A DNA stretch of 32,142 nt, taken from positions 1 to 32,142 of the forward strand of contig JAFGCQ010000030.1 of assembly GCA_016932555.1 (NCBI GenBank), in the 5' to 3' direction. This DNA comes from Candidatus Zambryskiibacteriota bacterium (GTDB lineage Bacteria; Patescibacteriota; Minisyncoccia; Phycocordibacterales; WO2-35-19). A program made the translations under genes and the position numbers. The notes beneath the pieces were generated by a model that made no database searches, had not been told where the DNA came from, and saw only the letters and a list, made by a program, of their open reading frames with translations. Positions 4,682-30,237 of this stretch are shown piece by piece (the first letter of the stretch is position 1; every line of letters begins with the position of its first letter).

Positions 4682-7438
4682 TTATAAACCTTTAAATTTT
4701 TCCAAAATCATTTCTTCTACTTCCTGTCGAGGTCGGCCGTATTTGAGATATGACATTTCTTTCAATTTTTCGACTTGATTTGCATTACCTTCACTTGGCG
4801 GTAAAGTTTCTATATTAAAAGGTTTAGCCGGCTTGCCGTTCACCAAGAGCCGCATATGGGCATTGTAATTGTCTATATTCATCAAATCATCAGCTGAAAA
4901 AGTTGGCTCAAACTGGCCCTCTAATTCTTCGGCATCTTCAGCACCGACACGGAAAGCGCACATAGAGCCTACATTGCCAAATACTGCGTCTTTTATTTTC
5001 TCTTCCAATTGAGCGATAAACTGATGTGCTACCGTCAAAGATAATCTATATTTCCTAGCCTCGGAAAGAATAGTTGAAATAGAATCGGTAGTGACATTTT
5101 GGAATTCATCAATATAAAGATAAAATGGTGGTAAATTTTGGCGGAGAGAGTCAGCTCGGGAAAGGGCGGCAATCAGTATTTTGCCTACCAAAATTAAGCC
5201 TATAAGATTAGAGTTTATATCACCTAATCTACCTTTAGAGAGATTGACCAACAAAATTTTTTGATTATCCATAATATCTCGAAAATTGAAGGATGATTTT
5301 TCTTGAGCGATGACTGGTCGCATAATTTCGTTGGCCAGGAATACGTCAAATTTACTGGTAACATATTGTACATAGTTGGCCAAACCTTGTTCACCAGTAG
5401 TTTGTTCAGCATTTATCCAAAATTGTTTTATTAGAGGATTTTTACATTTAGAAATTTTGTAATCTCGATAGCGCTTATTTGATAAGACTCGAGACATATC
5501 AACCAAAGTATTACCTGAGGCCGGATCATCCATTATCAGCAAAGCTGAGTTGCGGAAATATTGCTCAAAAGCCGGCCCCATTGATTCGGGTATCGCTCCA
5601 TAGAGCTTTTGGAAAATACTAAACAATTCATTAACCACAAAAGTTTTTTGTTCAGGATAATTTTCATCATACTCAAGCATATTAAGCGCCATAGGCCGCG
5701 CCGTAAAGGCTGGATCAAAATAAATCACTTCTTCGAAACGCTCGGGTGGTACATTAGCCAAAATATCTTGGATATCAGATCCGTGTGGATCAATCATACA
5801 AACCCCATGACCCATTTCTATATCTTGAATTATCATTTCCTTAAGTAAAACAGATTTACCCGTACCGGTCTGGCCAATACAATAAAAGTGTCGCAAACGA
5901 TCTTCTGTAGATATTCTAATTTCAGTCTCTTTATTTTGATGTTTGTTAAAACCTAAGAGGATACCTTCGGGGCTTAAATTAAAGGGGGCTGCTGCTGAAG
6001 TTACTCTATTTTGACGCAAACCTTCAGCACTACCCAGACTTTTGGTATGAAAATGGACAATTGAAGTCATTTCTCGCAAATTCATAGGAATAGCCGTATT
6101 AGCATCAAAAATTCTGAAAGTGAAATTTCTAACTAAAGATCGCAAATCACCTCTTTTGAACTCTTTCCAATTAAAAGAGTTGCCAAGGGTGTTTTCAAAT
6201 TGATTAAAGCTAGATTTTAAGCTATTCAATATCTCTTGAGCTTCATTTTCAGTTTTTGAAGAAGCTAAAATCCGTAGGTTACACTTAGTTATAGGAAAAG
6301 CTATTTTTTTATTTATCTCTTCTACTGTTTTCTCATCAATCAGCTCTTTTTGTTTATTTTCTTCATCAGTTGGTAAATTTCTTTTAGATGATTTGAATAA
6401 ATCTTTAAAAGTGCGAACAATTTCGCTTGAAATATCGTCTGGAATATCAATCGCTTCTTTGATAGGAACTCCTTCTCGGATCTTATCAAGAGCCGATTTA
6501 TATTTTTTAACATACTTATCACCCATTGGAGACCAAATAAGCTGGATAGCGGCTCCTTCGCCGTTTGTATTAACTTTAGAAAACGAAGAGAGAATAGAGT
6601 TCAGAGGATCGTGAATAAAATTTTCGTAGGTTTTGATAGGATAAATAGGATTTTGATTGAATTCTGCACAAGCTCCTAAAGTTACCCCGGCTTCATTAAA
6701 TATATTATAATCATCGGGCTGTTCGATTATTTTCGCGTTATGAAAAACTGAAATAATATGCTTTTCAAAAAGTCGCTTTTTAGCAGTCGGTACTGCTACA
6801 TAAAATACGATTTCTTCAGAAGAATTAGCATTTGCGATTTCCAAAGACATCCAGTTTTCAGAAAGCCTTTTAGGATCAGAAATTGAAAGCATGCCAGAAT
6901 AAAATTGCTCCATACTAGAAATGACTTCTTCTAGACTAGATTTTGATTCACTTTTATTAATTTCTTCTAATATCAAAATCTCATATAAAGACATATCCAA
7001 ACCTTTGAAAATCATCTCTCTGGTATTGAGTCCAGGAATAGTAAAGCCCTCTTTTATGTATTCAGAGATATAGCGGTGAAAATCATCAGTGAGGTGAAAA
7101 TTTTGCATTTTTTCTACCACACTTAGGGCATTTTTGATACCTTTTTTTTCAGCTAATCTTACCAGTTCTATAATTTGCTTATCATGCTCTTCGGGTGAGA
7201 GTCGGAGTACTATTTCTTTTTTTTCTTCTTCATTAATTGCATACTCAGGATGAAGCACTTCATAATCTGATATTTTTTTATACTGAGATAAAGTTTCTCG
7301 AGCAGATTTTAAAGATTCTTGCTTTACACCAAGATTTTCTAAATTTTTTTCTTTTTCAGCAACTAATCTGCGCAGATGAGCAATTTCATCTTCAGGATTT
7401 TTAAATTGATTTTTGGGCAACTCAAAAGCACTTTTCAT
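4682..7438 (-). CDS. type IV secretion / conjugative-transfer-type ATPase (DUF87 / TraM-recognition-like)
   Basis: Walker A GQTGTGKSVLL, DPHGSDIQDIL, Walker B FYLYIDEFQNV, SLTVAHQFIAQL. Start set at MKSAFELPK; the track start is 7459. Confidence 0.85.
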   Translation of the reverse strand: MKSAFELPKNQFKNPEDEIAHLRRLVAEKEKNLENLGVKQESLKSARETLSQYKKISDYEVLHPEYAINEEEKKEIVLRLSPEEHDKQIIELVRLAEKKGIKNALSVVEKMQNFHLTDDFHRYISEYIKEGFTIPGLNTREMIFKGLDMSLYEILILEEINKSESKSSLEEVISSMEQFYSGMLSISDPKRLSENWMSLEIANANSSEEIVFYVAVPTAKKRLFEKHIISVFHNAKIIEQPDDYNIFNEAGVTLGACAEFNQNPIYPIKTYENFIHDPLNSILSSFSKVNTNGEGAAIQLIWSPMGDKYVKKYKSALDKIREGVPIKEAIDIPDDISSEIVRTFKDLFKSSKRNLPTDEENKQKELIDEKTVEEINKKIAFPITKCNLRILASSKTENEAQEILNSLKSSFNQFENTLGNSFNWKEFKRGDLRSLVRNFTFRIFDANTAIPMNLREMTSIVHFHTKSLGSAEGLRQNRVTSAAAPFNLSPEGILLGFNKHQNKETEIRISTEDRLRHFYCIGQTGTGKSVLLKEMIIQDIEMGHGVCMIDPHGSDIQDILANVPPERFEEVIYFDPAFTARPMALNMLEYDENYPEQKTFVVNELFSIFQKLYGAIPESMGPAFEQYFRNSALLIMDDPASGNTLVDMSRVLSNKRYRDYKISKCKNPLIKQFWINAEQTTGEQGLANYVQYVTSKFDVFLANEIMRPVIAQEKSSFNFRDIMDNQKILLVNLSKGRLGDINSNLIGLILVGKILIAALSRADSLRQNLPPFYLYIDEFQNVTTDSISTILSEARKYRLSLTVAHQFIAQLEEKIKDAVFGNVGSMCAFRVGAEDAEELEGQFEPTFSADDLMNIDNYNAHMRLLVNGKPAKPFNIETLPPSEGNANQVEKLKEMSYLKYGRPRQEVEEMILEKFKGL

Positions 7439-7493
7439 AATATATTTTAAATTATACAAAAAAACTGCCCACTAAAGAAGTTTTTAGGTGTAT

Positions 7494-7858: not shown

Positions 7859-7930
7859 GGCCCTATCGTCTAACGGTTAGGACATCGGCTTCTCAAGCCG
7901 GCAATCAGGGTTCGATTCCCTGTAGGGTCA
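7859..7930 (+). tRNA. tRNA-Glu (anticodon CTC)
   Basis: GGCCCTA TC GTCTAACGGTTAGGAC A TCGGC TTCTCAA GCCGG CAATC AGGGTTCGATTCCCT G TAGGGTC A; TATAAT-like box just upstream (about 7842). Confidence 0.95.
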
Positions 7931-8026
7931 CACCACTCAGCCTTTTTATTATCAAAATATATGTCGTAATAAAGCCTAGAAATAGGCGTTTTACGTTTCC
8001 ACAGAAAATACTATTTTTGTCAAAAA

Positions 8027-8050
8027 AAGTAAACCCCACAGGGAATCGAA
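8027..8050 (-). repeat. inverted partial copy of the tRNA-Glu 3' half
   Basis: Minus strand ATCAAAATTCGATTCCCTGTGGGG vs tRNA ATCAGGGTTCGATTCCCTGTAGGG (20/24 by eye). Boundaries approximate. Confidence 0.55.
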
Positions 8051-8114
8051 TTTTGATACTCAATCAATTCTTTTTCCGATGTTTTTCTTCTTTTTTTAGA
8101 ACTTAAAAACTATA

Positions 8115-9458
8115 TTAAAATATACAAAGCTTTGACACAATTTCCGTAAAAAACCGCCCACGTTCTTCAAAATCGCTGAATTCTCCATAGCTTGGGGATG
8201 CTGGCGAAAGTAGGACTACATCACCAGCTTCTGCAACAGAAATGGCTTTGGAGACTGCAGACTGCAGGTCAGCAGAATAACTTGTATCAAAATGATAATT
8301 TTTGAATTGTATTTCTTGGAAAACACGATTGCCTGAGTCTCCAGTGAATATAATGTGCCTAACTTTTTCGTTATCTAATAATTTCAGAAACGCATCAAAT
8401 TGAAGGCCCCGATCCTTTCCTCCCAAAATCAATATTATGGGTGAAGGCCGAAAAGCTCTTACAGCCGCCAAGGAGGAGTCAGTAGTAGTAGATATAGAAT
8501 CATTTATAAACTGTATACCCCGCCAATTGAAGACCGTCTGTAATCGGTGGTCAAGAGGTGTAAAGGACATAAGGGTTTCTGCTAGTTTCTTCGGATCCGC
8601 ATCAAGTTTGGCATATGCGACAGTTAATGCAGCACATATATTGGATAAATTATGCCTGCCACGTAGTTGAAAATCCTTTAAAGATAAGAGTTTATCTTGA
8701 GCAAACATTATTGAATTCTGATCTGCCCAAAATCCAGAATCTTGCTGGTCATACCAAACAATATCAGATCTATGTTGCAAGCGCGATCGTAGTTCCTTAT
8801 TTGAAAAGCAAGCAACTTTCATTTGGATACTAGGTAAATCGAGCAATCGAAGTTTATCAAGAAAGTAATTTTCCTTGGTTTTATGCCAATCTATATGCTC
8901 TTGGAAAAGATTGAGTACAACACCAACAGCGGGACCAATTGTTAAATCGGCAATTTGATAGCTTGAGGCTTCAATAATAGTGTGGGCAGGTGGTTTATTG
9001 CAGCTTAGCATTGGAATTCCTATATTGCCTATCAATATGGCGTCCGTCTCCATACTACGAAATATATGATAAATGAGACTTGAAGTAGTACTTTTCCCTT
9101 TGGTTCCAGTAACTACAATTGGGAATGTTTGTTCCCGGAATGTTGAAAGCCATAGGTCCAGAGAAGTGTGTATTGGAATACCGACTTTTCGAAGTTCCAT
9201 CATCTCCTGTCTATAAATGCTGACACCCGGAGATCGGATTAGACAATCTATTTGATGATTCCGCAGTTTTGTAAGTGCTTTAGTAAAAGAATAGAAGTTG
9301 GAGGCAAATTCGTCATCTTCAGGTATTACGTTCTCATCGAACGTAATTATCTTTGCAGTTGGAGCCAGATCCTTTATTTCTCGGAAGGTTTGTTTTCCAT
9401 CCCTTCCCAAGCCCCATATAGCAATACTCTTGCAGGATGTAAGATCAGAGAGTTTCAA
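8115..9458 (-). CDS. murD2: UDP-N-acetylmuramoyl-L-alanine--glutamate ligase, MurD2-type (probable L-Glu-adding)
   Basis: Mur ligase P-loop VVTGTKGKSTTSSLIYHI, GNIGIPML, EASSYQI, FINDSIS, SPASPSYGEFSDFEERG. TTG start overlaps the upstream murL stop (TTGA). Confidence 0.82.
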   Translation of the reverse strand: MKLSDLTSCKSIAIWGLGRDGKQTFREIKDLAPTAKIITFDENVIPEDDEFASNFYSFTKALTKLRNHQIDCLIRSPGVSIYRQEMMELRKVGIPIHTSLDLWLSTFREQTFPIVVTGTKGKSTTSSLIYHIFRSMETDAILIGNIGIPMLSCNKPPAHTIIEASSYQIADLTIGPAVGVVLNLFQEHIDWHKTKENYFLDKLRLLDLPSIQMKVACFSNKELRSRLQHRSDIVWYDQQDSGFWADQNSIMFAQDKLLSLKDFQLRGRHNLSNICAALTVAYAKLDADPKKLAETLMSFTPLDHRLQTVFNWRGIQFINDSISTTTDSSLAAVRAFRPSPIILILGGKDRGLQFDAFLKLLDNEKVRHIIFTGDSGNRVFQEIQFKNYHFDTSYSADLQSAVSKAISVAEAGDVVLLSPASPSYGEFSDFEERGRFFTEIVSKLCIF

Positions 9459-10825
9459 ATTAAATTAAATAAGTAAGTAAGTAGTTCTTTGGAAACATTA
9501 TGGTCATCTGAATGGAAAAATGATTCAACCTTTGCCTGTTCAATTCTTTTCTGCTTATCCTGAAGTCTTTCCCACAAGTGCGCAACTACAACATCCGATT
9601 TCCAAACGCTAGACTCTGCAAGAATGCCGATTGCAGCAGCAGACTCTTCTATTTCCCCCACACATTCCCAAGGCTTGTGTCCAGATATTCCAACCAATTC
9701 GGAATAGCTTGGAATATTCGCTGGATTGTCAAGAAGATTACTTCCAAAAATATTGATGAGCCTTTTCTTCTCAAATGAGGTAGCAAGGGATAGAAATGCA
9801 AAGTGACATTTTGGACACTCACCACACCACAATCGGTCTGTTTGGGGATTTCGGATTTTGAAGACTCGATTGCAGCTGGTAAAAACATCATCATATTCCC
9901 TCTGACTCGAAAACAATCTGGCTATACTTAATTCAGACAATGGCCGAAGCAAAGAAAAATAATTGATTCCGCAAGCACCATCTTCATTGAGAAGTTTTCT
10001 TAAACGATTCTCAAAATCAAGAGATTTGCTGTATTGATGATTTACATCAATTCCAAAAGCTTTAAGATTACCCTCATTAGCAGAACGCTCGTTTGACATT
10101 ACTATGTCTTGAAATCCATGCCAAATTGCCGTAAAGCAAGCAATTAAGCTAATAATACCAGTTATTGGTATATGACCGTTAAGATATCCTACTTCGTTAA
10201 GTGAAAACAGATTAGGAGATAGCGTACGATAGACCTTCACCAAGGGTACACGGGCAATCTTAGCGAACTTAAGAATTACGCGAGAAGGATTAACAGAAAA
10301 CAGGGAAAACTCTCGCCCAGCTTCTTGCATGATTTTTACAGATGTAAGAGAATCCCTTCCCCCACCAATTGGGATTAGTGCTCTGTTGAGTAATTTGGTA
10401 TGGATAGCCTTAGCCTTCCTTGTCGGACTATAGAATGTAATTCGATCAGTTAGATCACAATGATTCCGATAGGCAAACTCAGCTAACCCTTGAAAATAAA
10501 GATTTCTAAAAAATTCACGAGCAATTGGGCTGAGGGGCGTCTTCACCAGGAGTACCGGTGGTAATGCAGCTTTGTAGTAACTTACGCCACAGGCGATATG
10601 AAGAAAGCAAGCAATTCTTTCAAGAGCTTTCCAATTTACCAAATCGGGATTTTGAGATTTCCCAAATTCTATCTTCTCGACAAATGATAAACCGTTATCC
10701 CATAAGTATTTAAGTGTAAGTATCCCCGATTGACTATTGAAATCCCATGAATCAAATATAAATTCAGAGACTTTATTCGAATCTCCGATCTTGTGCGATA
10801 TTTCTTTACAGATTGCTTTGGGCAT
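9455..10825 (-). CDS. murL: UDP-N-acetyl-alpha-D-muramoyl-L-alanyl-L-glutamate epimerase (MurL)
   Basis: MurL-like motifs: FAYRN, IPIGGGRDSLTS (PP-loop-like), NGHIPITG, SNERSANEG, VNHQYSKSLDFE, SLLRPLSELSIARLF, SCNRVFKI, WCGECPKCHFAFLSLA, LINIFGSNLLD, HKPWECVGE. Directly upstream of and overlapping murD2. Confidence 0.85.
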   Translation of the reverse strand: MPKAICKEISHKIGDSNKVSEFIFDSWDFNSQSGILTLKYLWDNGLSFVEKIEFGKSQNPDLVNWKALERIACFLHIACGVSYYKAALPPVLLVKTPLSPIAREFFRNLYFQGLAEFAYRNHCDLTDRITFYSPTRKAKAIHTKLLNRALIPIGGGRDSLTSVKIMQEAGREFSLFSVNPSRVILKFAKIARVPLVKVYRTLSPNLFSLNEVGYLNGHIPITGIISLIACFTAIWHGFQDIVMSNERSANEGNLKAFGIDVNHQYSKSLDFENRLRKLLNEDGACGINYFSLLRPLSELSIARLFSSQREYDDVFTSCNRVFKIRNPQTDRLWCGECPKCHFAFLSLATSFEKKRLINIFGSNLLDNPANIPSYSELVGISGHKPWECVGEIEESAAAIGILAESSVWKSDVVVAHLWERLQDKQKRIEQAKVESFFHSDDHNVSKELLTYLFNLI

Positions 10826-11259
10826 TTACTTATACGTTTTAATTAGGCTTAATTAGAAATCCTAGTTACCCTGAAAGAGCATATTTTTGTATTAGTTACA
10901 GGTAGCTTTTAACCCAACTGAATACTATATGTCAAGACTAGGAAACACGAATCCCACTATAAGAAATCGGCTGATTTCGTAAAATCCAAAGAATTTTCTT
11001 CCAGCTAATCCTAGATTTCCCATCAATTTTATCAATTTCTCAGCCAAAATTGCGAAAAATTTGGTTGATATTAAGACATCTCTCAGATCAATCTTAAAAA
11101 ACCAATTTTAATTCTAGCAAATTTTAGCAATTCCATAAAACGAGTCAATGGTGGATAAATGCTGGTAGATGCTGGCGCGGCACCTGATTCTTTTCCCAAG
11201 CCGGCAACTTTATCCTTCTTTTATCTCACTTCCAGCTTGTTATCCTTATAATTCCATAA

Positions 11260-11541
11260 CAGAATATCAAGCAGCTGCCTATTTACAGAGAAAATGATTA
11301 TGTAATTTTTAAATATGGTCACGGTAGGGTAGAAAAATATACCTCAAAAATATTAAAGAAAATTGAGAGGAATTTAAATGGTTTTAAAATATTTACCCCA
11401 CCGGTTGAATCTCTGAAAGAAAAATTTAGAAAACATATTGAGGACCGACCTAATAAGATTAAGTGTGAAAAGATTAAAATCGATGCCAAAGCATTGTTTA
11501 CAGACGAAGAAATTAAAGAAATGGGATGGAATGTAAATTAG
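11260..11541 (+). pseudogene. 5'-truncated ORF remnant of unknown family
   Basis: Open frame without a plausible start: QNIKQLPIYRENDYVIFKYGHGRVEKYTSKILKKIERNLNGFKIFTPPVESLKEKFRKHIEDRPNKIKCEKIKIDAKALFTDEEIKEMGWNVN*. Confidence 0.4.
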
Positions 11542-11787
11542 AAATATTTTATCATTACGGCAAAATTTCCCCTCTTTCAACGACTATCCAACTTGCTATC
11601 CTTAAAATCAAAACCGAATATCACGCTGTTTGACGGAGTTTCCTCTCTTCCAGCTCTTTCCGCTCGAAATATTTCCAGAGGTCATCAATCAATTTATCCA
11701 AGACCGGGTTCTTTGAGTTGTCCGATTGGGAAAAAGCTTGTCCTGAGCTTGTCGAATGGGTTCGAGGTACGTCCCGAAACGGGTCAC

Positions 11788-11833
11788 AAATTATACCACA
11801 CCAAAAAAGCCAAAGAGCATCTTTGACATATTA
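11788..11833. repeat. dispersed repeat copy 1 (with terminator-like hairpin on minus strand)
   Basis: AAATTATACCACACCAAAAAAGCCAAAGAGCATCTTTGACATATTA; near-identical copy at 30166-30213. Confidence 0.65.
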
Positions 11834-11842
11834 CTAAAAACA

Positions 11843-11865
11843 TCAAAGACTTTTTTGGTCTTTGA
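11843..11865 (-). terminator. intrinsic terminator downstream of the 29-aa ORF
   Basis: Minus strand TCAAAGAC CAAAAAA GTCTTTGA followed by TGTTTTT. Confidence 0.6.
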
Positions 11866-11899
11866 TATCTTTAGTCTCAATAAATTAGAGATAGTTTTG

Positions 11900-11989
11900 C
11901 TATTCAGCAGCTGGAGTCTCCTCTTCAGGAGCAGCCATAGGATCTTCACCTTCAGCGGTGGTTTCTTCCTCTTTCTTTTCTTCGTCCAT
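11900..11989 (-). CDS. 29-aa highly acidic small protein
   Basis: ATG...TAG reads MDEEKKEEETTAEGEDPMAAPEEETPAAE*; terminator immediately downstream. Below the size cutoff of the ORF track. Confidence 0.45.
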   Translation of the reverse strand: MDEEKKEEETTAEGEDPMAAPEEETPAAE

Positions 11990-12098
11990 AGTAATATATA
12001 TTATTACGGCTGATAATTCGTCGTAAATAACCGACAATTAAATATTATCAATATTTTATAATCCTGGCAAGTCTTTCTGTGTATTACGACACATTTTT

Positions 12099-13808
12099 TT
12101 AAATAACGTCTTCCGGTCTATCTGGTGAGATTTGGTAGTAGTTTATAATAAATTTAGTAATGTCAAAAAATGGATCAGTTAGAGTTTCAGATGCATAGCG
12201 TACATTTTGGGGATTAATATGGAATAAGAAGATTAAAAATCTTGGATTATAAGCTGGGAAATAACCGAAAAACGAATGCAAATATTTACCTTCAACATAA
12301 CCAATTTCGCCTTCATTAGTCATTTGAGCTGTACCGGTTTTGGCTGCCACTGAATAGCCAGGAATTCTCATTTGCCCATTTTTAAGAGAAGTATCTACTA
12401 CTTTGACTAACATCCGAGTGATTTCTTCTGAAGTTTCTTTTTTAATAATTTGTTTGCTGGGAGCAAAAGATGTTTTTTGAGAGAGCCCATCTTGGTATTC
12501 TATTTTTTTTACGATGTGAGGAGTAATTAATTTACCACCATTAGCTAAGACCGAAAGCGCTCTAACAGTTTCAATGGGAGTTATCGCGATACCATGACCA
12601 TAAGCGGCTGTGGCTATTTCAATTTCACGACCACTATCAAAATTTTTTATAAGACCCCTAGTCTCGTTGGGTAAATCTATGCCGGTTTCAGTGCCAATAC
12701 CAAAATTTTTCATATATTCTATAAATTTCTCATTACCCATTTTCAAAGCCACAAAAGCCGCTCCAGTGTTCAGAGATTGATTTAAAACTTCTTGCATATC
12801 AACAGTTCCCCTGCCTCTATTATCATAATTTGAAATGCGTTTATTATTTAAAACTAAAAAACCAGCATCATAATAAGTACTATTAGCAGTTATGGTGCCG
12901 TTATCAATACCGGCTGCTATAGTTATGGGTTTTATAATAGAACCCATTTCGTAAACTCCTTCGACTAAGAAATTGCCAAAAAAATTAACATTGCTTTCTT
13001 GAAAATTATTTAAATCAAAAGAAGGGTCCCAGGCCATGGCAATAATTTCTCCATTTATTGGGTTAATTATTATACCACCAGCACTATTACTGCCCCATTT
13101 TTCCCTAGTTTTTACTAACTCATCTTCCAAAAAAAGTTGAACCGCAGGTTCAATAGAAGTAATAATGCTGCCCTCTTTTTTAGGATGATCACTAAAAGTA
13201 TCCTTGACATTAGATAAAAACTCAGCAAAAAAGTTATTATAGGCTTTTGAAGAATCGATTTTTAAAATATCCTCATAATAACGCTCTAAACCGTAACGCC
13301 CAGCTAATTCATCATCCTTAAAACCTACAAGACCAATTACATTAGCGGCTAATTTTCCGCCGGGATAAAATCGCCATTTATCAATTGAGAGAGTCACTCC
13401 ATAAAGATTAAGATTTTTTATTTTTTCAGCAGTATCAGAATTTAAGTGTTTCGCGATTTCTTCATAAGGATCGTCTTGTTTCCGGGCTTTAGTCATAAAT
13501 TCTGATTTATCTAAAACCAAAATTTGATTTAGTTCATTATAGATCTCCTCTGGATTCTTTATAATTTCAGGATTTATAGCTATTGTAAAACCAGAACGTG
13601 AAATTGCCGCTGGAATTTTTTCGCCATTTTTGTTTTCAAAATAAATAGTTTCTCTATCATAAAGAATTGTGCTTTCGTTTATGTTTTGCCTTTCAGCTTC
13701 AGTTTTAAAAGTTTTACTATTTACAACTTGGATTTGATAAAGACGAAAAGTTATAACTAGTGCTACCAGTACGATAATCACTGAGATGAAACGGATCCTT
13801 CCCAACAT
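12099..13808 (-). CDS. ftsI: peptidoglycan transpeptidase FtsI / PBP3-like
   Basis: YEMGSIIKPITIAAGID (SxxK), SLNTG (SxN-like), AAKTGTAQM (KTG); position in dcw cluster. Confidence 0.9.
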   Translation of the reverse strand: MLGRIRFISVIIVLVALVITFRLYQIQVVNSKTFKTEAERQNINESTILYDRETIYFENKNGEKIPAAISRSGFTIAINPEIIKNPEEIYNELNQILVLDKSEFMTKARKQDDPYEEIAKHLNSDTAEKIKNLNLYGVTLSIDKWRFYPGGKLAANVIGLVGFKDDELAGRYGLERYYEDILKIDSSKAYNNFFAEFLSNVKDTFSDHPKKEGSIITSIEPAVQLFLEDELVKTREKWGSNSAGGIIINPINGEIIAMAWDPSFDLNNFQESNVNFFGNFLVEGVYEMGSIIKPITIAAGIDNGTITANSTYYDAGFLVLNNKRISNYDNRGRGTVDMQEVLNQSLNTGAAFVALKMGNEKFIEYMKNFGIGTETGIDLPNETRGLIKNFDSGREIEIATAAYGHGIAITPIETVRALSVLANGGKLITPHIVKKIEYQDGLSQKTSFAPSKQIIKKETSEEITRMLVKVVDTSLKNGQMRIPGYSVAAKTGTAQMTNEGEIGYVEGKYLHSFFGYFPAYNPRFLIFLFHINPQNVRYASETLTDPFFDITKFIINYYQISPDRPEDVI

Positions 13809-17769: not shown

Positions 17770-18951
17770 TCAACCTTTGTTCTTTTTATCCATCCACTTT
17801 TTATCTTGCCTAACTAATTTGGAAATATCCGCTCGATTAGCTAAAAGTGGCTTTATAGCTTCTTCAGTAAAAACACCATTTTGCGAACCTTTTACTAGAA
17901 CAACAGCTTTTTCTCTTATCTTTTCCTTCGCGAAATTGCCAGCATCAAGAGCATCTCGAGATTCATAAACCTGACAACCTTGACTTCTAGCTGCTAAAGC
18001 TAAAAAAGCATTAGCATCTCTACCAATAGTTATCACCCAATCTAAAAGCTCTGGTTTGCAATATTCTCCCACTTTTCTATGTTCAGATTCAGACATTTCA
18101 CCCAGTTCATTCATCATGCCTAAAATTGCGATTCTCTGAGACGTTTCAAAAGCATAGATAGCATCTAGCGCCATTTTGAGAGCTTGAGGGCTAGAATTAT
18201 AGGAATCATCAATGATAATTGAATTTTTAATACCTTTTAATTTTTGCATCCGTCCAGCAAAATTTGATATTTCATTTAAAGCCTTACTTATTTTCTCTTT
18301 TGAAATTTTCAAATATTTAGCAACTGAGACAGCAGCACTGGCTGAATAGTTTTCCGCTTGAGAAAAAGTTTTTAATCTGTAATTTTGATCAAGTTTACTG
18401 TAAAATTTTACTTGATTAGAATTTAAATCTAGTGGCAAAATTTGGCAAAGATCTCGATTCGCAAAAATCTTTTTGCTAAAAAATCTCACATTCCATTCTT
18501 CCACCATTACCGCTTCCAAGGTTTTAAAAAATTCCATGTGTTCGGGAGTAACAGCTGTCACCACCGCTATATCCAGAAGAAGATACTTTTTAAATTTTAT
18601 GATTTGTCCAGGAGCATCAGTGCCCAACTCGACAACCACAATGTCGAAAGGAAAGTTTGAAGTTATTTGAAATTCATTTTTTATAATGATCCCGAACCAA
18701 GCAAGAGCATTAAAAAGAGTTGGCATTTTTTGACCAAAAAATATCAAAGGTACGCTTACAATGTCGTTGTAATTGCCCTTCTGGTATCTGACTCTTTTAT
18801 CTGATTCTAAAACTTTAGCGATAGCCAATTTAGTTGAAGTTTTTCCAATTGAGCCTACTATACCAATAGTTTTGAAATTATGTTTCTTATACAACCTTTT
18901 CACTTGCCAACCTAGTATTCCCACCAAAATATTTTTAAATATTGTCTTCAT
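17770..18951 (-). CDS. murF: MurF-like Mur ligase (UDP-MurNAc-tripeptide--D-Ala-D-Ala ligase)
   Basis: IGIVGSIGKTSTK P-loop, VTAVTPEHMEFF, IIDDSYNSSPQALKMALDAI, AILGMMNELGEMSESEHRKVG, VLVKGSQNGVF. Confidence 0.85.
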   Translation of the reverse strand: MKTIFKNILVGILGWQVKRLYKKHNFKTIGIVGSIGKTSTKLAIAKVLESDKRVRYQKGNYNDIVSVPLIFFGQKMPTLFNALAWFGIIIKNEFQITSNFPFDIVVVELGTDAPGQIIKFKKYLLLDIAVVTAVTPEHMEFFKTLEAVMVEEWNVRFFSKKIFANRDLCQILPLDLNSNQVKFYSKLDQNYRLKTFSQAENYSASAAVSVAKYLKISKEKISKALNEISNFAGRMQKLKGIKNSIIIDDSYNSSPQALKMALDAIYAFETSQRIAILGMMNELGEMSESEHRKVGEYCKPELLDWVITIGRDANAFLALAARSQGCQVYESRDALDAGNFAKEKIREKAVVLVKGSQNGVFTEEAIKPLLANRADISKLVRQDKKWMDKKNKG

Positions 18952-20954: not shown

Positions 20955-21762
20955 TATTAAGAGGATATATAAAAACAGTGTTAAGTTTATAAATATCGGT
21001 CGGTAAAGACATAAAAACGTTCTTAAAACCCGAGAGCCGATCCTCATCTATAACACCAGCCACTGCGGCGATAAAATTGAAAGAACCACCAATCATTATT
21101 TCGTCCCCAACTTCTATATCAAAATCAATAGGTAAGTTGGCTTTCATATTGCCTCCGCCGCTGCCTTTTATTTCAATTGGCTCATTAGTTCTAGCCACAA
21201 AACCATAGGTATATACATCTACAAAAGAATTCAGTTTAATTGTAGAACTGTTGTTGTTAGATTTGGCGATTCGACCAATTAAAATTCTATCGCTAGCCAA
21301 AACTAAATCCCCAACCTTTATGTTTTCATTAATACCCTTATCTAAAATTAAGGAATCCAAAGCCACTTGGGGAAATTTAGCTATAATAGATGCTGCTAAA
21401 AATTGACCGGATAATTTTATACTCAATTCTTCTCTTAATCTTTGGTTTTCGTAATTTAAAGCAATAATATTAACTAAATTAAGATGATTTTGGTTTATTT
21501 CTTCTAAAAGTTCTTGGTTTTCCTTTATTAAAATAAGTTTATCAGAAAAAAATTTAGGTATTTGATTTAAGTTTTTATAAAAAAAATTTCCAGTTTTTAA
21601 AAACGGATTCAAAACCTCTGTAAGTAAAGAATTCGCAAAAATATTACCAATTAAAAATGCAAAAATTAAAACCACCAAAAAAAAGGAGACTAATCTAAAG
21701 GTTTTGTTATACCAAATACTTTTTTTATTACGTTTTATTGGATATATCATTTTCATCAGCAA
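20947..21762 (-). CDS. mreC: rod shape-determining protein MreC
   Basis: N-terminal TM, coiled coil, ASIIAKFPQVALDSLILDKGINENIKVGDLVLASDRILIGRI; downstream of mreB. Confidence 0.85.
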   Translation of the reverse strand: MLMKMIYPIKRNKKSIWYNKTFRLVSFFLVVLIFAFLIGNIFANSLLTEVLNPFLKTGNFFYKNLNQIPKFFSDKLILIKENQELLEEINQNHLNLVNIIALNYENQRLREELSIKLSGQFLAASIIAKFPQVALDSLILDKGINENIKVGDLVLASDRILIGRIAKSNNNSSTIKLNSFVDVYTYGFVARTNEPIEIKGSGGGNMKANLPIDFDIEVGDEIMIGGSFNFIAAVAGVIDEDRLSGFKNVFMSLPTDIYKLNTVFIYPLNNE

Positions 21763-22792
21763 TTAATATATCTTTATATTCTTCAAGTTTCTCAAGGATA
21801 ATGCCAGTACCTCTAACTACACAAGTTAATGGGTTATCAGCTATATAAACTGGTATCTTAGTTTCTTCGCTCAAGATATCAGAAAGACCTTTAATTAAAG
21901 CACCTCCACCAGTTAAATAAACTCCTCGGCGCATAATATCTGAAAGCACTTCAGGCGGAGTAACTTCTAAAACTTCTTTTACAGCTTCAATCAATGCTTC
22001 AACAGAATGAGAAACAGCATCTCTAATATCAGAATCAGTTACCATCACTTCTTTAGGTAGTCCAGTGACTAAATCACGACCTCTGGCTTTAGTTTCTAAA
22101 GGTATTTCACCAGATAATAAAGCAATCACACAAGTTTTAACATTTTCAGCAGTTTTTTCACCGATAATTATTTTAAATTCATTTCTTATATAAGAAATAA
22201 TATCGTTGTTAAGTTTATCACCAGCGATTTTTACATTCTTGGAACTAACCACTCCACCCAAAGAAATAATAACAATATCAGCAGTGCCCCCACCTATATC
22301 TATCACCATATTACCAACTGGATCCCGTATTGGTAGATGCATACCAATAGCTGCCGACATGGGTTCTTCAACTATGTGCACTTCACTAGCTCCTGCATTT
22401 TTAGTGGCATCTCGCACAGCTCTAGTTTCAACATTAGTTATACCAGAAGGCACCCCCACTAAAACTCTAGGTCCTAAAATTTTTTTAGAAACTGTCTGGG
22501 CTTTATTAAGAAGATAATGAATCATTTCTTCAGTAACTTCAAAATCAGAAACCACACCTTCGACAATTGGTCTCACGGCTATAATATGTGGCGGTGTTCT
22601 CCCTAACATATTTTTGGCTTCAATACCAACAGCTACTACTTGGCCAGTTTTTTGATTTACAGCTACCACCGAAGGTTCATTTAGGATAATACCTTTACCC
22701 TTAACATAAACCAGCATATTAGCAGTTCCTAAGTCAATGCCTATATCATTACGCAAAAAACGCATCCATTGTTCCCATTTATTTTTGAACAT
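21728..22792 (-). CDS. mreB: rod shape-determining protein MreB
   Basis: DIGIDLGTANMLVYVKGKGIILNEPSVVAVN, MVIDIGGGTADIVIISLGGVV, YLTGGGALIKGL. Confidence 0.95.
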   Translation of the reverse strand: MFKNKWEQWMRFLRNDIGIDLGTANMLVYVKGKGIILNEPSVVAVNQKTGQVVAVGIEAKNMLGRTPPHIIAVRPIVEGVVSDFEVTEEMIHYLLNKAQTVSKKILGPRVLVGVPSGITNVETRAVRDATKNAGASEVHIVEEPMSAAIGMHLPIRDPVGNMVIDIGGGTADIVIISLGGVVSSKNVKIAGDKLNNDIISYIRNEFKIIIGEKTAENVKTCVIALLSGEIPLETKARGRDLVTGLPKEVMVTDSDIRDAVSHSVEALIEAVKEVLEVTPPEVLSDIMRRGVYLTGGGALIKGLSDILSEETKIPVYIADNPLTCVVRGTGIILEKLEEYKDILIADENDISNKT

Positions 22793-27148: not shown

Positions 27149-28165
27149 TTATCTTTTAGTAATTATCATGCGTTTATAAGCAGTTAAATGATCAAGAGCA
27201 ATACCCGTACCTCTAGCCACGCAATAAAGTGGTTCTTTGGCTAAAGTGGTTTTAACTCCAACTCTTCTAAAAATAAGTTCTGTCAAATTTTGCAAAGATG
27301 AGGTACCGCCAGTCATAATTATACCTTGATCTATAATATCGGCGGCCAATTCAGGTGGGGTCTCTTGTAAGACATCTTTAATAGTTTTTATAATTTCCCG
27401 TAATTCCTTAGAAATAGCTTTAACAATTTCATTGGTTTTAACTTCTACCGATCTCGGCAAACCAGACATAAGGTCACGGCCTTTAATAACCATTGATTGT
27501 TCCTTATCTACTGGCAGAGCTGAACCGATTTTTATTTTTGTATTTTCAGCCATTTTTTCACCAATAGCTAAATTGAAGGTTTTTTTAATATAATCTGCAA
27601 TACTATCATCTATTTTATTACCAGCGCATTTCAGTGATTTAGAAGAGACAATGCCGCCTAAAGAAATAACGGCCACATCTGTCGTGCCACCACCAATATC
27701 AGCAATCATATGACCCCTAGCCTCATAAATAGGTATACCAGCACCAATCGCTGCTAAAATAGGCTCTTTTATGACATAAGCATTTTTGGCACCTGCTTTT
27801 ATAGCTGCTTCTATGACTGCCCTTCTTTCAGTTGAAGTTACGCCCGCTGGCACAGAAATCAAAACTTCTGGCTTTACAAAACTCCAACCCCCCATGGCTT
27901 TTTTTATATAGTAAGAAAGCATGGCCTCAGTTACTTTATAGTCGGCTATAACTCCATCTTTCATTGGTTTATAAGCCACAATAGCATCTGGAGTACGACC
28001 AATCATGGTTTTAGCTTCGTTACCTACCGCCAAAATTTTGTTATTTTCCAAAAGAATTGCCACTACCGAAGGTTCGTTCAAAACCACTCCCTTGCCAGGC
28101 ACAAAAACCAAAGTATTAGCTGTACCCAGATCAATGCCCAGTTTTTTAGATAAAAACGCCATCAT
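27149..28165 (-). CDS. mreB: second MreB paralogue
   Basis: KLGIDLGTANTLVFVPGKGVVLNEPSVVAIL, MIADIGGGTTDVAVISLGGIVSSKSLKCAG, IMTGGTSSLQNL. Confidence 0.93.
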   Translation of the reverse strand: MMAFLSKKLGIDLGTANTLVFVPGKGVVLNEPSVVAILLENNKILAVGNEAKTMIGRTPDAIVAYKPMKDGVIADYKVTEAMLSYYIKKAMGGWSFVKPEVLISVPAGVTSTERRAVIEAAIKAGAKNAYVIKEPILAAIGAGIPIYEARGHMIADIGGGTTDVAVISLGGIVSSKSLKCAGNKIDDSIADYIKKTFNLAIGEKMAENTKIKIGSALPVDKEQSMVIKGRDLMSGLPRSVEVKTNEIVKAISKELREIIKTIKDVLQETPPELAADIIDQGIIMTGGTSSLQNLTELIFRRVGVKTTLAKEPLYCVARGTGIALDHLTAYKRMIITKR

Positions 28166-28241: not shown

Positions 28242-30167
28242 ATGTTTAAAATTGATTGCTTACCATTTTCAAAAGGTTTGACTAAAGAATCTCTATCTTA
28301 CTTTAGCGCTAAAAATTTGAGGCCTGGTACCTTGGTGAAAGTAAAACTCCGAACAAGAAATGTGCCGGCCATAGTTCTCAAAAGCACAAGTGTATTAGAA
28401 GCTAAAACAGAAATAAAATCAGCCAATTTTAGACTTAAGAAAGTTTCAGCTGGTAATGTAGTAGTCAAGCCTTTTTTACAAGAAGAGTTTTTTGAAGCTG
28501 TAGAAGAGTGCGCTAAATATTTTGCAAGTAATCCCGGTAATATTTTTTCTCATCTTATTCCCGCTTTTGTTTTGGAAAATCCAAGTATACTTTCAATATT
28601 AAAAACAAACAAAATTCAAAAATCTAAAAATAATATCAAAAAAAATATTTCTATCCTACAGTCACCAGATGAGGAGCGTTTTATACATTATCGCTCTCTT
28701 ATTAGAGAAGAATTCGCCAGAAAAAAATCGATATTTCTCTGCTTACCACAAAACGAAGACATAAAATATGCAAAGGAAAAATTGGAAAAAGGTATTGAAT
28801 CCTATGTCTGCCTCTTACATAATGATATGGAAAAGAAGAAATTAAAGGAGGAGTGGAAAAAAGCTTATACTACTTCCCACCCAGTTCTTATAATTGCTAC
28901 TGCTAGATGGTTGTTTTTGCCGCGTGAAGATATTGGTACTATCGTGATAGATAAAGAAAATCGTAATGGCTGGAAAACTTTATCAAGGCCTTTTATTGAT
29001 TTACGCACTTTTGCCGAAATTTTAGCCAAGCAGAGAGGTATCCACTTAGTTTTGGGTGACACATTTTTGCGGACCGAAACTTTGTATCGCTATAAACAGG
29101 GCGAGCTTTATGAATTTGAAAATGTAAAATGGCGATTAATGCCGGAATTTAAAATTACTATAGCTGATATGAGAGAAGTTACAAAAAAAGAAAGGGAATT
29201 TAAAATTCTTTCCCCAGAAATTCGAGAGTTTATAAAAGAAATCGCTGATAGAGGTTCACATATGTTTATTTTTGCCGCTAGAAAAGGCCTCTCTTCAGTT
29301 ATTATTTGTAGAGATTGTGGCGAACAAGTTAGATGTTCCAATTGTTCTTCACCAGTAATTTTGTATCGCGCTAAAGCTTCTTCCGGTCAAAGCACTGAAA
29401 CCGGAGGTATTTTTAAATGTCATCAATGTGGTGAAGTTAGAGATGCGGCAGAAGTTTGTCAAAATTGTCAAAGCTGGAAATTGGAAGCTTATGGAGTGGG
29501 TATTGATATGGTCTCAGAGGAAATTAAAAAAGAAATTTCTGGAGTGAGTCTTTTTGAAATCCATAAAGATATTACCCCGACTAGTATTAAAGCTTCTGAT
29601 ACAGCTCAAAAATTTTATGATACTAAAAGTTCTTTGCTTCTAGGTACTGAAATGGCCTTTCCATATCTTCGTAAAAAAGTTTCTTATTCAGCTATTGTCT
29701 CTTTTGATTCCCTTTTTTCTATCCCTGACTTCCGCATCAAAGAAAAAATATTCGGCATTATTTTACAAACTAGAGATATGGCTAGAGAAAAATTCTTGAT
29801 TCAGAGCCGTAATCCAGAAGATCCTGTAGTAAAATTTGCAGTAAGTGGTAACTTGCTAGAATTTTATAAAAAAGAAATAGAAGATCGTAGACTGCTAAAT
29901 TATCCACCTTTTGGTATTTTTATAAAAATTACTGTGCGCGGCACCAAAGGCTTTGTTTCCAGAGAAGCTGAAAGGCTGCAAAAAGCTCTAAAAAATTTTG
30001 AGTCCACTATCTTTAATTCTATTCAAGAAAAAAAAGGTGGCCAAGCTGCTATAAATGCTGTTATTAAATTGAAAAGAGAAAATTGGCCCGATCAAAATCT
30101 TATCAAGATTCTTAAATTCCTCCCGCCTCATTTTGAAATCAAAATCGACCCCGATAGTCTCTTATAA
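28242..30167 (+). CDS. priA: PriA-like primosomal protein N' (apparently ATPase-degenerate)
   Basis: Eight-Cys zinc region CRDCGEQVRCSNC...FKCHQCG...CQNC; C-terminal LLNYPPFGIFIKITVRG; no GxxGxGKT found. Confidence 0.8.
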   Translation: MFKIDCLPFSKGLTKESLSYFSAKNLRPGTLVKVKLRTRNVPAIVLKSTSVLEAKTEIKSANFRLKKVSAGNVVVKPFLQEEFFEAVEECAKYFASNPGNIFSHLIPAFVLENPSILSILKTNKIQKSKNNIKKNISILQSPDEERFIHYRSLIREEFARKKSIFLCLPQNEDIKYAKEKLEKGIESYVCLLHNDMEKKKLKEEWKKAYTTSHPVLIIATARWLFLPREDIGTIVIDKENRNGWKTLSRPFIDLRTFAEILAKQRGIHLVLGDTFLRTETLYRYKQGELYEFENVKWRLMPEFKITIADMREVTKKEREFKILSPEIREFIKEIADRGSHMFIFAARKGLSSVIICRDCGEQVRCSNCSSPVILYRAKASSGQSTETGGIFKCHQCGEVRDAAEVCQNCQSWKLEAYGVGIDMVSEEIKKEISGVSLFEIHKDITPTSIKASDTAQKFYDTKSSLLLGTEMAFPYLRKKVSYSAIVSFDSLFSIPDFRIKEKIFGIILQTRDMAREKFLIQSRNPEDPVVKFAVSGNLLEFYKKEIEDRRLLNYPPFGIFIKITVRGTKGFVSREAERLQKALKNFESTIFNSIQEKKGGQAAINAVIKLKRENWPDQNLIKILKFLPPHFEIKIDPDSLL

Positions 30168-30213
30168 AATTACACCACATCAAAAAAGCCAAAGGGCATC
30201 TTTGACATCTTAT
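30166..30213. repeat. dispersed repeat copy 2
   Basis: AAAATTACACCACATCAAAAAAGCCAAAGGGCATCTTTGACATCTTA; matches 11788-11833. Confidence 0.65.
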
Positions 30214-30237
30214 AAATTATGCTAATATTAAAATACA

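Follow-up and report, generated by a model that had tools for sequence, protein, structure and literature searches.

A murL-murD2 gene pair as the probable route to D-glutamate for peptidoglycan in a Candidatus Zambryskiibacteriota genome

The murL and murD2 genes

We analyzed a 32,142-nucleotide (nt) stretch of DNA, hereafter the window, which comprises positions 1 to 32,142 of contig JAFGCQ010000030.1 from a Candidatus Zambryskiibacteriota bacterium, a member of the Patescibacteria. Its minus strand contains two overlapping genes, murL (positions 9455-10825) and murD2 (8115-9458), located between the division gene ftsI and a gene for tRNA-Glu. An earlier interpretation made from the letters alone, here called the sequence-only reading, had proposed that these genes encode MurL and a MurD homologue and that together they provide D-glutamate (D-Glu) for peptidoglycan. 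In agreement with the first part of this proposal, the best match of the 456-amino-acid (aa) murL product, which begins at an ATG codon, is the MurL profile NF041275, and it extends over the whole length of the protein (residues 16-450 on profile positions 4-441 of 447; 420.8 bits, E 5e-126). The second open reading frame (ORF), 447 aa from a TTG start, matches the murD profile TIGR01087 with 303 bits (cut-off 212), as expected for a MurD homologue. The murL stop codon TGA (9457-9455) and the murD2 start codon TTG (9458-9456) have 4 nt in common, the predicted TTGA overlap, which was seen at 9455-9458 on the minus strand and would couple translation of the two genes.

The motif series on which the name MurL had been based, from GGGRDS to HKPWECVGE, was located completely in the 456-aa protein. 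Across 12 MurLs of the phylum, GGG-x-DS, NGH-x-P, NHQ-x-SKS, WC-x-x-C-x-KC and KP-x-ECV form invariant or near-invariant columns. Pfam has no model for MurL, and a Pfam scan of the protein gave no significant match; a sequence search for a solved MurL structure found none. By these criteria the 456-aa protein is a MurL homologue with a predicted MurL function.

The amino acid used by the ligase was approached through its specificity residues. In Xanthomonas oryzae MurD2, specificity for L-Glu is governed by Glu197 and Arg358, which correspond to Asp182 and Lys348 of Escherichia coli MurD, and a double swap of these residues turns the enzyme to the use of D-Glu (PMC8788868). In our alignment the window ligase has Glu187 at the Asp182 position (8898-8900, minus strand) and Arg350 at the Lys348 position (8409-8411, minus strand), and three further residues, Ile322, Pro422 and Tyr424, are also of the MurD2 type. 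We compared 118 MurL-linked MurDs, among which some loci overlap so that a few sequences are counted twice, with 31 MurDs of the phylum that have no linked MurL, a set biased towards the best-scoring canonical MurDs. Arg at the Lys348 position was present in 107 of the 112 linked MurDs having a letter there and in none of the 31 unlinked ones; likewise, Ile at the Lys319 position (83 linked MurDs) and Pro at the Ala414 position (86) were absent from the unlinked set. The distribution of Glu at the Asp182 position was less clean (84/118 linked versus 8/31 unlinked). The joint residue pattern places the window ligase in the MurL-linked group of MurDs, and on this alignment its substrate would be L-Glu.

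Routes to D-Glu in the genome, its relatives and the phylum

The draft genome consists of 608 kb in 33 contigs and is 93% complete; absences from it are therefore not absolute. Within this draft no match was obtained for glutamate racemase (MurI; profiles PF01177 and TIGR00067) or for a class IV D-amino-acid aminotransferase (PF01063), while the controls of both searches matched as expected. A second full MurD was not found in the draft either, which leaves the window ligase as its sole full MurD; other matches to the MurD profile were rejected as a second MurD because they correspond to MurE (contig C21) and MurF (contig C8). Both MurE and MurF are thus present. With the searches for murI, a D-amino-acid transaminase and a second murD all blank, no intact murI accompanied by a canonical murD was detected elsewhere in the draft. 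The sequence-only reading had held that the pair would supply a reduced genome lacking MurI with a route to D-Glu-containing peptidoglycan, a claim that is supported by the MurL match, the Glu and Arg residues and the absence of a racemase.

For comparison we used seven genomes of the same genus and one of the same family (labeled G287-G294), in none of which MurL or MurI was found. Four of them (G287, G291, G292 and G294; three of the same genus, one of the same family) contain a Dat/BCAT-class transaminase gene adjoining that of a canonical MurD. Judged by its genes this module is the ordinary Dat route, from which the window genome differs in having no PF01063 protein.

The distribution of MurL was analyzed in a sample of 287 genomes of the phylum. 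A strong MurL is encoded by 44 of them (~15%), most heavily in certain families, f78 among them. MurI scoring over its cut-off was found in none of these 44 genomes versus 73 of the 243 others (Fisher p 7e-7, kinship ignored), and the exclusion also holds at a 100-bit limit (p 1.5e-8, kinship again ignored). Weak and mostly partial glutamate racemase matches (25-55 bits) do occur in MurL genomes (G109, G157, G110, G178, G269 and others); these are probably other proteins of the Asp/Glu-racemase superfamily. In 39 of the 44 MurL genomes, MurD adjoins or is fused to MurL. Eight single ORFs of 731-907 aa, one of which runs off its contig, combine an N-terminal MurL with a C-terminal MurD, and the same fusion exists in named records of Falkowbacteria, Moranbacteria and another Patescibacteria bacterium. 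Since 22 of 60 compared MurI genomes of the phylum also have murI no more than 2 kb from murD, the D-Glu supplier, whichever its kind, tends to travel with murD. Two longer ORFs, of 1341 aa (L083:439-4461, genome G077) and 1346 aa (L084:1448-5485, genome G233), contain two to three successive matches to the window MurD and look like fusions of multiple Mur ligases.

Taken together, the lack of MurI and of a PF01063 aminotransferase, the single MurD and its residues Glu187 and Arg350 make MurL-MurD2, with L-Glu as the amino acid used, the best-supported route to a D-Glu peptidoglycan precursor in this genome, to which we give a probability of about 0.88 on sequence evidence. The pair resembles MurD2-MurL of X. 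oryzae (XOO_1320/XOO_1319; reviewed in PMC8788868 and PMC5808125) in the full-length MurL match, the adjacent MurD-type ligase with the Glu and Arg specificity residues, and a genome without glutamate racemase or D-amino-acid aminotransferase. It differs in belonging to a 608-kb Patescibacteria genome, in lying beside ftsI and tRNA-Glu, in being known here from genes alone, and in having phylum relatives that include single-chain MurL-MurD fusions. With the canonical MurI-MurD route it shares the ligase superfamily, but the genome has no MurI, the ligase carries MurL-linked residues, and murL takes the place of murI near murD.

Several observations speak against this assignment. First, the MurL score of 421 bits is below the curated NF041275 cut-off of 700. 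However, this cut-off is missed by all 44 MurL-bearing genomes of the phylum and also by sequences from Solirubrobacter (402), Microbacteriaceae (335) and Devosia (371), the last a genus named in a review as possessing the MurD2/MurL pathway, whereas a Rhodanobacter sequence passes (765). A score under the cut-off thus marks lineage and not function, since the model is named for the Xanthomonadales and fits this order. Second, Arg at the Lys348 position is also present in the transaminase-adjoining MurDs of G287 and G294 and in the MurD of Streptococcus mutans (PMC8788868). As a stand-alone marker this residue was dropped because of G287 and G294, and the joint pattern was used instead. Third, MurC was not found in the 93%-complete draft, which leaves the substrate of MurD2 unaccounted for; this absence may be real or a gap. 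MurC is present in the same-genus genomes G287 (a call based only on its matches to the MurD model and to Mur ligases), G291 and G289 (where it is split at a contig end), and was seen in none of the five other relatives. Fourth, a full MurD, MurL and MurI are all missing from the same-genus genomes G288, G289, G290 and G293, and D-Glu supply in the genus may therefore depend partly on uptake.

The last two observations would fit a ligase of the ordinary MurD kind, supplied with D-Glu by scavenging from neighbors or a host, with MurL redundant or otherwise employed, and Patescibacteria frequently live as symbionts; four same-genus genomes lack MurD together with every D-Glu route searched for. 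Nevertheless, in its Glu187, Arg350, Ile322 and Pro422 the window ligase agrees with the MurL-linked MurDs rather than with the unlinked ones of the phylum, strong MurI and MurL never occur together in the 287 genomes, and MurL and MurD are neighbors or fused in most genomes that have MurL. We consider scavenging with a D-Glu-using MurD unlikely.

In G288, G290 and G293 only MurE- and MurF-type ligases were found, and MurC, MurD, MurI and MurL were not; the pathway may be reduced in these three bacteria, or they may import a precursor from one of its early steps.

The MurL-MurD2 pathway itself is already known, and a review describes it as confined to a fairly small number of proteobacterial and actinobacterial genera. 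A full-text literature search found no paper on MurL in the candidate phyla radiation (CPR)/Patescibacteria, and the present occurrence and its setting are new within the searchable literature; a single reference mentioning racemase activity for Saccharimonas aalborgensis was encountered. Annotation that seeks MurI alone would misjudge Patescibacteria genomes of this kind as unable to make D-Glu.

Fold of MurL and candidate mechanism

An AlphaFold2 model of the window MurL (mean predicted local distance difference test score, pLDDT, 90.8) was compared with the Protein Data Bank (PDB) using Foldseek. The best matches were to QueC, the 7-cyano-7-deazaguanine synthase (2pg3, E 5.8e-5; 3bl5, E 4e-4), and other PP-loop enzymes came next. 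The GGGRDS motif of MurL (residues 154-159; 10349-10366, minus strand) is PP-loop-like, of the ATP-binding kind, and occurs as GGGxDS in 121 of 126 MurLs. A second motif, SC(N)...CGECPKC, provides a QueC-like four-cysteine site (Cys318/334/337/340; 9806-9877, minus strand), a pattern present in 118 of the 126, which probably binds zinc. Its counterpart in E. coli QueC is TCYNGFKGDGCGHCAAC, and the two proteins share the GGxDS/C...C-x-x-C-x-x-C arrangement; put together, likeness to QueC lies in the fold, the GG-x-DS motif and the C...CG-x-C-x-x-C pattern. MurL differs in having extra N- and C-terminal parts and another substrate, and the similarity covers only ~220-245 alignment columns with 14% identity. 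The link between the sequence profiles is weak, as an hhalign comparison with QueC of E. coli is confined to the PP-loop (E 0.014); a relationship drawn from sequence alone was therefore discarded as too weak and retained only jointly with the fold result. Together, the modeled fold and the motifs suggest that MurL has a QueC-like PP-loop adenylating core.

QueC activates a carboxylate with ATP and releases AMP. The MurL reaction yields AMP as well (PMC8788868, PMC5808125), and the discoverers of MurL, who stated that it has no known domains, proposed an adenylate mechanism. The QueC-like fold and the shared formation of AMP support their proposal. According to such a mechanism, the PP-loop domain of MurL would adenylate the alpha-carboxylate of L-Glu; the acidified alpha-carbon of the L-Glu adenylate would be deprotonated and then reprotonated, and hydrolysis of the adenylate would render the reaction one-way. 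MurL, converting ATP to AMP, would in this manner invert the terminal L-Glu to D-Glu, after which MurE and MurF could continue the precursor, and free D-Glu, MurI and a D-amino-acid transaminase would not be needed. The mechanism of MurL is termed unclear in the reviews (PMC8788868, PMC5808125), and both the MurL-MurD fusions and the QueC-like fold offer handles on it.

That QueC is the closest fold, and that the score is under the equivalog cut-off, would also be expected if MurL had by drift taken on a different PP-loop activity, adenylating some other carboxylate in the manner of QueC, and left MurD to maintain peptidoglycan synthesis. We regard such a drift as very improbable: the full-length match (E 5e-126) scores above that of a Devosia MurL, the 4-nt overlap couples murL to murD, and the genome has no other D-Glu source that we could find.

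Insertion site and origin of the pair

The pair is flanked on the left by ftsI, encoding the division transpeptidase (12099-13808, minus strand; 70-75% identical in same-genus genomes), and on the right by the gene for tRNA-Glu (CTC) (7859-7931, plus strand), followed by a gene (4682-7459, minus strand; 68-75% identical in same-genus genomes) for what we take, from general knowledge of such sequences, to be a VirB4/TraC-like ATPase. In relatives with a readable locus, tRNA-Glu (CTC) comes next after ftsI and, where the contig continues (G287, G288, G291 and G292), the virB4-like gene after that, and in G287, G288 and G292 these landmarks are merely 0.3-0.9 kb apart. The window keeps this order, with murL-murD2 inserted in the interval that runs from ftsI to the tRNA-Glu 3' end, on a segment (7932-12098) whose counterpart in the relatives is no more than short intergenic DNA. 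Both genes of the pair are richer in GC (38.7% and 39.4%) than the window (34.5%). An 18-nt inverted copy (17/18) of tRNA-Glu positions 53-70, located at 8033-8050 on the minus strand, is a possible trace of integration. At a classical attachment site the tRNA sequence would be expected to recur as a direct repeat, and no such terminal repeat was found on the ftsI side; integration at tRNA-Glu is thus only suggested.

The higher GC content, and the absence of MurL from all same-genus genomes, could also reflect a misbinned or chimeric contig carrying a pair foreign to the organism. Contamination was rejected, however, as the genes on either side and the tRNA-Glu follow the order of the genus, at the identities given above, on one and the same contig, and we give this explanation hardly any credence.

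In a tree of 68 MurLs, 36 Patescibacteria sequences are on one side of a branch (support 100/97) and the window MurL on the other, among alphaproteobacterial MurLs, with Devosia as its nearest neighbor at moderate support (92/83). Constraining the window MurL to group with the other Patescibacteria MurLs costs 31.9 log units, but the approximately unbiased (AU) test (p 0.08) does not formally reject such a clade, a further point to be set against the reading given here. The MurLs of the phylum cluster with those from records named as Peregrinibacteria, Gracilibacteria and Moranbacteria, which bears out the description of the genome as Patescibacteria-like in the sequence-only reading. One Saccharibacteria MurL (L131) groups with actinobacterial MurLs and not with other Patescibacteria, and a MurL-MurD fusion occurs in an actinobacterial bin (L151); these may represent additional transfers or binning errors.

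The empty site, the higher GC content and the alphaproteobacterial grouping point to a recent horizontal replacement. Transfer from a donor of proteobacterial type is likely from the tree, though its direction and donor are our deduction, and the simplest account of the site being empty in relatives and of the position in the MurL tree is that this species acquired the pair recently. The pair would have been acquired at the 3' side of tRNA-Glu beside ftsI, and murL-murD2 is probably a local replacement in this species of the Dat-MurD module seen in related ones. The alternation of Dat-MurD and MurL-MurD2 within a genus, at a defined insertion site, provides a clear example of the exchange of an essential step. 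Family membership, gene order, residue signature, empty site, fold match and the missing alternative D-Glu sources were all computed in this work. Chances appear about even for a broader view, in which MurL-MurD2 would be a transferable, self-sufficient D-Glu cassette that has repeatedly taken over from modules with MurI or Dat throughout the Patescibacteria, becoming a single fused ligase-epimerase in several lineages, and MurL a QueC-type PP-loop adenylating enzyme turned peptide epimerase.

The 1.27 kb between ftsI and murL (10826-12098) contain no convincing gene. A 51-nt stretch within this region is 90% identical to window positions 30167-30216, possibly a dispersed repeat. Elsewhere, the window encodes a MurF-like ligase (17770-18951, minus strand; TIGR01143 E 1e-49, below its cut-off) together with other cell-wall and division genes: ftsI, a PBP2-type protein, two mreB, mreC, mraZ and mraW. 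The two MreB paralogues (21728-22792 and 27149-28165) thus lie within a single 32-kb window of a 608-kb genome.
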